Of a DNA stretch of 44,518 nucleotides, positions 2,129 through 27,319 are shown one piece after another. Origin of the DNA: Candidatus Poribacteria bacterium (lineage in GTDB: Bacteria; Poribacteria; WGA-4E; UBA9662). Position 1 is the first letter of the stretch. Each line of letters opens with the position of its first letter. Position numbers and translations under genes: made by a program. The DNA is taken from assembly GCA_002709695.1 (NCBI GenBank), contig PAQF01000007.1:1-44518 (forward strand), in the 5' to 3' direction. The notes beneath the pieces were generated by a model. That model saw only the letters and a program-made list of their open reading frames with translations, made no database searches and had not been told where the DNA came from.

Positions 2129-3928
2129 TTATAAGCGTTCCACCCAGCTTTGAATGTGTGGTTGCAGGAAAGTCTGCGCTCGTTTGGACCACAGATGGTC
2201 GAGCGTTAAACCTCGGAAAATTGGCATAACACTCATCTTGAGATGCAGTTCTTCAGTTAACTTTTCAATCGATAGATCCGCAGATTTATCAACCAAATAG
2301 TGCAGAACTGTAGCTGCGTCTGACAGGCCTGTGACAGCGTGGTGAGGCTCAGGTAGATTTCTAAGTTGATGAACAGCATCATCCAAGTTGGGACGATGCC
2401 GATCATACCACCATTTGTCGAGTGACTCCATTGCTGATGCAAAGCAGGTTGCGGAATCACCAAGCTCTTTTTGATTACGTGGGTTACAAATAAAATCGCC
2501 AAGTTCTATCAGGATGGAATTTCTAGATTTTGTAGGGTACAACTGTCGATTGAAGAAATAATAGTCACTCGAATATTGGGTGTAAGGCGTTAACCGATAA
2601 GCAAGTGATGCTTCGTGTTTTGATTCGAAGCTAGCTTCCAACCACTGGTCAATCTGGCGAAATTTGGGTTCAGGTAAAATATTATTGGACTCAAAACCAC
2701 CTTCTAGGCCAAGGCAGAAGCTAAGTGGCAGAGGAGTTAGTCCATGTTCCCTCATGATATCAATAGTTTTATGTTCAGTGCTCCGGATAATTACTTTGCT
2801 CCCATCAGGAATTTCAGTTGCGAGTTGGTGTCGCAAATTAGGATGAGAACTAAAACCTAACCTTCCATCTTCAATGGACTCAACCCACCAAGGGCACAGG
2901 GTTATATTGGTTCTTCCATCGATCCTGTCAGATAAAATGTAGAAAGCATTCATCATAACTTTAAAGTAATCTTGGCAATTGGAACAGATGCAAGCACCGG
3001 GATCAGCGAACCAAAGTACAAAGCTGTCCGTAACGTCGGCAAAAGTATCAATCAAGTAGTCTTGGAAAGGCAGGATCTGTTCCTTTCCACGCTGCCAACA
3101 CAGGGTAATTCCTGTATAATTGATATCCTCCGCCCGAAATTGAGGAAAACGTAACCATATTGATGGGGGAACGGTGCCTGTAGAGAAACCGACATGAGTT
3201 TCCATACCCATCACTTGGGCGTACTCTAGTGCATCATGCCATACTGGATAACGCCAACTGTTACAACCCAAGCTAGGTTCGTCAGGATGATAATATTGCG
3301 TCGACCAGATATAAATTTTTAGCAAGTTGCAACCCGCTGCGTTCAGAAGTTCGATATACCATTTCCAATCCTCCAAACTCCATGTATCCGTCGTCAACGG
3401 GGTGAGATTCCATGGAACGTCTGAAGCATAGATGCCTCGAATCGAAAATGATGATTGTTGATCAGCAAAGCAACGTATCATACGGAATTGTGTATCGTTA
3501 TTATTTCGCCCCACCAGACGATAGCCTTGCTTGGAATAAACTCGAATAGCATGATAATTCTCCATATAACAGGTCAGTGAGAGACCCAATTTTCCATGTT
3601 GTTGGGCTGTAATCTCAATTTCTTGCATTAGTCTTCGACCTATTCCCATGTTCTGAAAGTTATCAATAACGCCAATGCCTAAAACAGGATAGCTGTTTCT
3701 ACCCCTATACCAAATATGTCCAACCATTTTCTGATCGCTAAATGCACCGATGTGAGCACAGTCATCATTTTTAATTTCTTTGGCAATCAATTGTATCGCA
3801 CCATCATCAAAAGCATACGGATGATAGAAGTTTCGACTCGTTTCAGATAACCCGCTGAAAAAAGCAGGGATTTTTGGAAGATCCGTGCCTTCTAATAAAC
3901 GAATAGTTATGTTACTGCTGGAATCCAT
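2129..3928 (-). CDS. GNAT acetyltransferase domain fused to a glycoside-hydrolase-like TIM barrel
   Basis: This 599-residue protein has two parts. Residues 6-150 look like a GNAT N-acetyltransferase: IGVIDNFQNMGIGRRLM carries the acetyl-CoA loop Q-x-x-G-x-G, and a typical YSKQGYRLVGR segment follows. From about 160, IRGIYASDVPWN begins a barrel with GH20/alpha-glucuronidase-like features, including a W-rich front half, THVGFSTG, and ADPGACICSNC with a C-x-C-x2-C group, ending in a helical region. I cannot name the barrel family or its catalytic acids with confidence. No stop or start signal separates the halves, so the fusion is real in this assembly. Neighbours are a PhyH dioxygenase 48 bp upstream and the sirtuin downstream. 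An acyl- or N-acetyl-sugar substrate is possible but is a guess. Confidence 0.7.
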   Translation of the reverse strand: MDSSSNITIRLLEGTDLPKIPAFFSGLSETSRNFYHPYAFDDGAIQLIAKEIKNDDCAHIGAFSDQKMVGHIWYRGRNSYPVLGIGVIDNFQNMGIGRRLMQEIEITAQQHGKLGLSLTCYMENYHAIRVYSKQGYRLVGRNNNDTQFRMIRCFADQQSSFSIRGIYASDVPWNLTPLTTDTWSLEDWKWYIELLNAAGCNLLKIYIWSTQYYHPDEPSLGCNSWRYPVWHDALEYAQVMGMETHVGFSTGTVPPSIWLRFPQFRAEDINYTGITLCWQRGKEQILPFQDYLIDTFADVTDSFVLWFADPGACICSNCQDYFKVMMNAFYILSDRIDGRTNITLCPWWVESIEDGRLGFSSHPNLRHQLATEIPDGSKVIIRSTEHKTIDIMREHGLTPLPLSFCLGLEGGFESNNILPEPKFRQIDQWLEASFESKHEASLAYRLTPYTQYSSDYYFFNRQLYPTKSRNSILIELGDFICNPRNQKELGDSATCFASAMESLDKWWYDRHRPNLDDAVHQLRNLPEPHHAVTGLSDAATVLHYLVDKSADLSIEKLTEELHLKMSVMPIFRGLTLDHLWSKRAQTFLQPHIQSWVERL

Positions 3929-26272: not shown

Positions 26273-27319
26273 TTGATTAAGGTTTATAGGTTATACATAC
26301 TGCTAATTTTAGTTCTGGCTTGGTTTGGTTTTCATCAATCCGTAGTTGCGGTGAACTATTCTACTGACCCAATTATCACGGTGTTACCTTTTGATGCTAT
26401 TCTTGCTATCACCGAGCCCCGATTTGTAGAGGCTCGTAATGCTAAGTTAGGTATCAATTCTCCGGTAATTGGTGTTAGTTTAAATGGAGATAGTCGTGCC
26501 TACTCTATTCATTTGCTAAATGACCATGAGATTGTTAATGACCAAGTTGGTGGTATCCCTATAGCTACAACTTGGTGACCGCTCTGCAATACGGCTATCG
26601 TGTATAGCCGGGAGATTGAAGGACAAGTATACACTTTCGGTGTTTCAGGAAAACTCTGGCGTGATGCACTGTTAATGTATGATCATCAAACACGTAGTTT
26701 ATGGTCACACATTACTGGCCAAGCTGTGGAAGGTGAATGCCAAGGAAAACAGTTAAAAATACTGGTTAGTATGCCCAAGATCACTTGGCAATTTTGGGAA
26801 ACACATTATCCTGAAACCAAAGTACTTTCGGTTGGTGATAATATAGATCGTTTTGGGCAGCAACGGGAAGATGAGGCATGGGATGGTTATCAACGGTACC
26901 ATCAGAGTTCAAATGCTGGTATCAGTGGAACGAGATACAATGATTTTCGTTTGAAGAACAAAGAGAAAGTTGTCGGCGTGCGTATCGCAGAGAATTACCG
27001 TGCTTACCCTTTCTCTGTTTTTAAAAAGACCGCAATTGTCAATGATACCATTGCTCAAAGACCGGTCTTGGTTTTCCACCATAATAAGTCAGGGGCAACT
27101 GCGGTTTTTCTTAGGTTTGTAGGGACAAAAAGGCTTACTTTCGTTAATTCTGTTGATTATCTTGTGCAAGATGAGCAAACAGAAACGCTATGGAACTTAA
27201 TTACAGGTATCGCTGTAGAAGGAAAACTGAAAGGGAAAAGGCTGCAGAGATATCCGGCGGTGAATGTCTATTGGTTTGCCTGGGCACGTTATCACCCTGC
27301 GACAACTGTTTATCGTTAA
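26273..27319 (+). CDS. DUF3179 protein with in-frame TGA: candidate selenoprotein
   Basis: Reading through one TGA (26576-26578, codon 102) gives a 348-residue DUF3179 protein. It has a signal peptide or anchor at about 3-27 (YRLYILLILVLAWFGF), then IGVSLNGDSRAYSI, then GGIPIATTW-TGA-PLCNTAIVYSR, FGVSGKLWRDALLMYDHQT, SLWSHITGQAVEG, and a second half repeating related motifs to the end. In DUF3179 the motif is normally TYCPLCNSA, so TGA replaces the first Cys of CPLC and would create U-x-x-C. The frame is intact on both sides. A hairpin fitting a bacterial SECIS follows. The start is TTG, because a stop three codons earlier excludes others. Alternatives are a nonsense mutation or a base-call error (TGC to TGA). 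DUF3179 biochemical function is unknown. Confidence 0.8.
26592..26610 (+). promoter_or_regulatory. Putative bacterial SECIS hairpin
   Basis: CGGCTAT (26592-26598) pairs perfectly with ATAGCCG (26604-26610) around the loop CGTGT. The loop starts 20 nt after the TGA and has G at its second position. Known bacterial SECIS elements place the apical loop about 16-37 nt after UGA with a G in the first two loop positions. CTC 26582-26584 may also pair with GAG 26612-26614. Confidence 0.65.

Follow-up and report, generated by a model that had tools for sequence, protein, structure and literature searches.

A gene on the forward strand of a 44,518-nucleotide stretch of Candidatus Poribacteria DNA (the window, that is the whole stretch analysed), a largely uncultured and often sponge-associated group, almost certainly encodes a genuine selenoprotein of the DUF3179 family (PF11376), in which the UGA at 26576-26578 would be decoded as selenocysteine (Sec) under the direction of a SECIS element; the product would have 348 residues and contain a U-P-L-C motif. 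Comparison with homologues argues strongly for Sec decoding of this codon. The original prediction had presented the gene as a candidate for a new selenoprotein family, and this part of it fails, since DUF3179, to judge from the literature cited for it, has counted among the catalogued selenoprotein families from 2007 on: “DUF3179 domain-containing protein, pfam11376, UxxC/T” is listed in PMC9312934, which cites there its reference 63 (Zhang and Gladyshev 2007, Nucleic Acids Res. 35:4952), and the listing is repeated in PMC13188914. With the family for which the 2007 paper is cited the window gene shares the Pfam family, the UxxC Sec motif and bacterial Sec decoding, and it is a well-supported new member of this known family rather than a new one. 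PMC13188914 does not mention Poribacteria, and no paper linking this phylum with selenoproteins was found among open-licence PMC papers. What is new is the near-universal occurrence of a DUF3179 selenoprotein in Poribacteria, a deep, mostly Sec-containing subfamily with Trp before Sec, the UxxA and UHLC variants, a Cys copy from Scalindua with what looks like a relict hairpin, an internal duplication, and a weak fold likeness to the Rieske-type barrel without its ligands.

The only internal stop in the frame 26273-27319 is the TGA, flanked as predicted by ATTW and PLCNTAIVY and followed by 246 further codons before TAA. With TGA read as a residue, the Pfam DUF3179 profile matched residues 41-344 straight across it with an E value of 9.6e-79 (265.3 bits against a gathering cut-off of 27), which confirms the proposed family identity; NCBIfam profiles gave no match, and a PDB sequence search gave no relative. 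The TTG start, a point that speaks against the selenoprotein reading, corresponds in position to an ATG start in the same-genus orthologue L020. No other DUF3179 gene was found in the source assembly (5.2 Mb, 87 contigs, 96% complete). The window belongs to contig C7 of this assembly, and its closest named relatives identified by sequence are Candidatus Poribacteria MAGs. Automatic annotation would truncate this gene at residue 101 or place its start at 26600. Positions of all features are collected in the table.

Features of the DUF3179 gene and its putative SECIS element (positions in the window)
Feature	Position	Strand	Details and basis
DUF3179 selenoprotein gene (predicted)	26273..27319	+	348 residues, Sec at 102; TTG start, TAA stop
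TGA codon, predicted Sec 102, first position of U-P-L-C	26576..26578	+	TGA/Cys column comparison
TGC codon, second Cys (residue 105) of U-x-x-C	26585..26587	+	Ala in a few relatives
Bacterial SECIS upper hairpin (putative)	26592..26610	+	pairing, covariation, synonymous freeze
Hairpin 5' arm	26592-26598	+	CGGCTAT
Hairpin loop	26599-26603	+	CGTGT
Hairpin 3' arm	26604-26610	+	ATAGCCG
DUF3179 domain 1 (residues about 41-190), holds Sec	26393..26842	+	Pfam; model pLDDT 95.9
DUF3179 domain 2 (residues about 215-344), repeat of domain 1	26915..27304	+	hhalign

The frame would also be open if UGA stood for Trp or some other amino acid throughout the genome. The probability of such an alternative code is negligible, however: TGA is the ordinary terminator of 5 of the 33 long ORFs in the window, in agreement with the original prediction, no in-frame TGA was seen at Trp columns within the window, the TGA under study coincides exactly with a column in which Cys is conserved, and tRNA-Sec, SelA, SelB and SelD are all present. 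The search of the same genome for the four sel genes, proposed together with the prediction, thus returned the complete combination expected for a bacterial selenoprotein: selA (577 bits), selB (343.6 bits), selD (359.9 bits) and selC, the tRNA-Sec gene (70.6 bits against the Rfam cut-off of 47). The tRNA-Sec gene occupies positions 3412-3505 of the locus L001:1492-3505 and overlaps the final 12 bases of selB, which ends at 3423. Overlap of selC with selB is known in Alpha- and Gammaproteobacteria and in Nitrospirae (PMC13188914); here the same arrangement occurs, but in Poribacteria. The selD gene (L041, G000:C48:8595-9515, minus strand) has an in-frame TGA of its own, marked by the asterisk in LAKTCG*AAKVSP. 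It stands at the place where SelD proteins usually carry Sec or Cys. This SelD is very probably a selenoprotein itself, which would make selD a second gene of this genome with a TGA read as Sec.

Within Poribacteria DUF3179 is present in 75 of 85 genomes, and in 69 of these 75 a copy is interrupted by one in-frame stop only, which is always TGA and never TAA or TAG. Of the 69 genomes with a TGA copy, 62 also have a strong tRNA-Sec, scoring 64 bits or more; the other seven are draft MAGs. DNA of the site, read in 62 of the 69, had the form W-TGA-PLC in 59 cases and W-TGA-HLC in three. Where a MAG gene contains one internal stop, the cause is often a nonsense mutation or a miscall, with only a remnant of the frame behind it, yet for the window gene such an origin (pseudogene or sequencing error) is refuted and deserves practically no credence: TGA is found at this codon in all 59 of the poribacterial UPLC-type orthologues, which come from independently assembled genomes, the frame beyond it is whole and conserved in these orthologues, with no decay downstream, synonymous codons are frozen and the hairpin described below covaries. 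Poribacteria thereby appear as a phylum that decodes Sec almost universally and has a DUF3179 selenoprotein in most genomes. In some poribacterial genomes Cys-form paralogues (for example L083 and L012) occur in addition to the Sec form. The three W-U-H-L-C copies (L078, L079 and L080) form a second, divergent Sec clade of the phylum; their hairpin is shifted and has 5 bp, and the CGUGU loop is kept in two of the three.

The RNA hairpin CGGCUAU-CGUGU-AUAGCCG begins 13 nt after the TGA, reaches its loop 20 nt after it and has an energy of −9.5 kcal/mol (26592-26610). Rules for the bacterial SECIS given in PMC13188914 call for a loop of 3-9 nt, a stem of 4-16 bp, a G in the first two loop positions, a distance of 16-37 nt from UGA to the loop and an energy of at most −7.5 kcal/mol; with its 5-nt loop, seven pairs, G at loop position 2 and the distance and energy just given the hairpin falls within all of them. 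The geometry put forward in the original prediction is thus correct. Taken by itself in the window sequence the hairpin does not reach significance (z = −0.04 for a 71-nt fold), and seven pairs were reached in 2.6% of synonymous shuffles of the window gene; its significance came from comparison. Among 58 poribacterial orthologues the codons beneath it, ACG-GCT-ATC-GTG-TAT, are nearly invariant (ACG in 56/56 among Thr, GCT in 56/58, the other three in 58/58) and have the lowest synonymous diversity of the gene. In 30 diverse Sec sequences standard pairs fill 96.7% of pair cells, 37 both-side changes were counted and five of the seven pairs have changed on both sides. Covariation in the same set is 0.454 against 0.132 in shuffled alignments, with none of 500 shuffles as high, and it reaches at most 0.130 when the hairpin is slid; the compensatory changes span at least six phyla beyond Poribacteria. 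All seven pairs are formed in 85 of 95 Sec forms versus 1 of 55 Cys forms, and the CGUGU loop is found in 85 of 95 Sec forms. Based on the synonymous freeze, the covariation and the restriction to Sec forms the hairpin can be taken as the SECIS, which would direct Sec insertion at the UGA, decoded by SelB with tRNA-Sec. The Rfam model SECIS_1 had no match in the genome itself, nor in any of 14 control genomes; since it is silent in the controls and covers one class only, its non-match is uninformative. The lone Cys form with all seven pairs appears to belong to Candidatus Scalindua rubra (L096). Its hairpin looks like a relict left after a loss of Sec to Cys, as the sister Anammoxibacter has Sec.

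Beyond the phylum a GTDB scan gave at least 588 DUF3179 loci, and among the best 80, which were kept, 21 loci from outside Poribacteria carry TGA at this site. They belong to Chloroflexota, Planctomycetota (Anammoxibacter), Nitrospinota, Acidobacteriota, Bacillota and Fidelibacterota (Marinimicrobia), with one unclassified bacterium; bins may contain foreign contigs, therefore phyla represented by a single locus should be treated with care. Over 150 loci, about a dozen poribacterial ones of which occur in both collections and probably come from the same genomes, the site codon is TGA in 95, TGC or TGT in 55 and nothing else. The UGA is thus aligned with Cys of homologues, with the frame conserved on both sides, and its predicted place in the DUF3179 Cys column is borne out. 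The residue before Sec is Trp in 94 of 94 sequences, while Trp precedes Cys in 5 of 54 and Tyr or Phe in 49 of 54. Cys forms (CPLC; Chloroflexota, Nitrososphaerota and others) belong to the same family and have Cys in the Sec column, but differ from the window protein in the preceding aromatic residue and in having no SECIS hairpin. A tree of 97 proteins, calculated with the Sec column omitted, needs five Sec/Cys changes; one of its halves contains Cys forms only, and in the other Sec predominates, with Cys forms scattered through it. Such a division suggests, rather than proves, an ancient Sec-using DUF3179 subfamily, and with a support of 88 for the dividing branch (SH-aLRT, quick search) this reading can be no firmer than a suggestion.

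The second Cys of the motif is replaced by Ala in Anammoxibacter (UPLA, L094), in a Bacillota MAG (UPLA, L124) and in Scalindua (CPLA, L096 and L097). Review listings give UxxC/T for the family and not UxxA (PMC9312934, PMC13188914). Since UxxA relatives exist, the family can do without a second Cys in this position, and of the U-x-x-C redox motif originally proposed the motif itself stands, while an indispensable part for its Cys does not. Together with the Scalindua Cys copy and its hairpin these relatives make up a natural series on the roles of Sec and of the second Cys.

The AlphaFold2 model (pLDDT 90.8 for the full protein, 95.9 for domain 1 alone) has an N-terminal hydrophobic helix (residues 2-19) followed by two beta-rich domains, with Sec 102 at the end of a beta-strand in domain 1. 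Comparison of the two domains by hhalign gave a probability of 99.9 and an E value of 1.5e-35, that is an internal duplication, and domain 2 has neither Sec nor Cys at the site equivalent to Sec 102. Mostly beta and built of repeated domains, the protein does not have the thioredoxin fold, and no thioredoxin is among the Foldseek matches listed. Best matches of the full model were Rieske ferredoxins (probability 1.00, target TM 0.56-0.60, E 0.007-0.1), and with domain 1 alone the Rieske match was weaker (E 0.12 and up). The Rieske Pfam profile (PF00355) had no match to either half at E 10; hhalign to Rieske gave no support for domain 1 and 11-15% for domain 2. Rieske ferredoxins thus resemble the modelled fold weakly, and their canonical C-x-H...C-x2-H ligands are absent from the window protein, so that the barrel likeness may serve as a weak lead on the fold only. 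A rival reading is a Rieske-derived selenoprotein whose Sec and Cys would bind a metal, with no role for Sec as a redox selenol; the top Foldseek matches and a hand alignment, in which H85-x16-U102-x2-C105 reproduces the Rieske H-x16-C-x2-H spacing, could indicate it. This is very unlikely, since the E values of these matches never fall below 0.001 and are poorer with domain 1 by itself, some relatives have Ala in place of Cys105, and the hhalign register puts the Sec motif off any Rieske ligand. The hand alignment of U102-x2-C105 on the Rieske C-x2-H is unsupported by the profile comparison, which places the Sec motif elsewhere, and it counts here only towards this improbable rival.

For a selenoprotein with a redox-active Sec the product would be a 348-residue U-P-L-C protein of two repeated beta-rich domains, exported or anchored in the membrane by its N-terminal hydrophobic helix; export, as originally proposed, is plausible from this modelled helix. 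The Sec selenolate would be a reactive nucleophile or reductant, and Cys105 may assist it without being an obligatory resolver. The setting may be an extracytoplasmic thiol/oxidant reaction, and the most likely mechanism is a reaction of the Sec selenolate with an oxidant or a disulfide in a protein that is exported or anchored in the membrane. A broader proposal, which we regard as improbable, is that a deep UPL[CA] subfamily with Trp before Sec, in which Sec is the ancestral state, extends over Poribacteria, Chloroflexota, Planctomycetota, Acidobacteriota, Nitrospinota, Fidelibacterota and Bacillota and acts through a single reactive selenol, independent of the second Cys, in a Rieske-like barrel that has been duplicated. 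We know of no earlier link between selenium and a redox fold of this kind.

In the window the DUF3179 gene has FIST-domain and RraA-like genes as neighbours, and the FIST neighbour is common only to the window genome and a same-genus genome. Since neighbours differ among the poribacterial copies, there is no conserved operon pointing to the function of DUF3179. In many poribacterial loci a convergent SDR-like (short-chain-dehydrogenase-like) gene, absent in the window, follows DUF3179; in L031 such a gene lies about 0.9-1.7 kb past the TGA.
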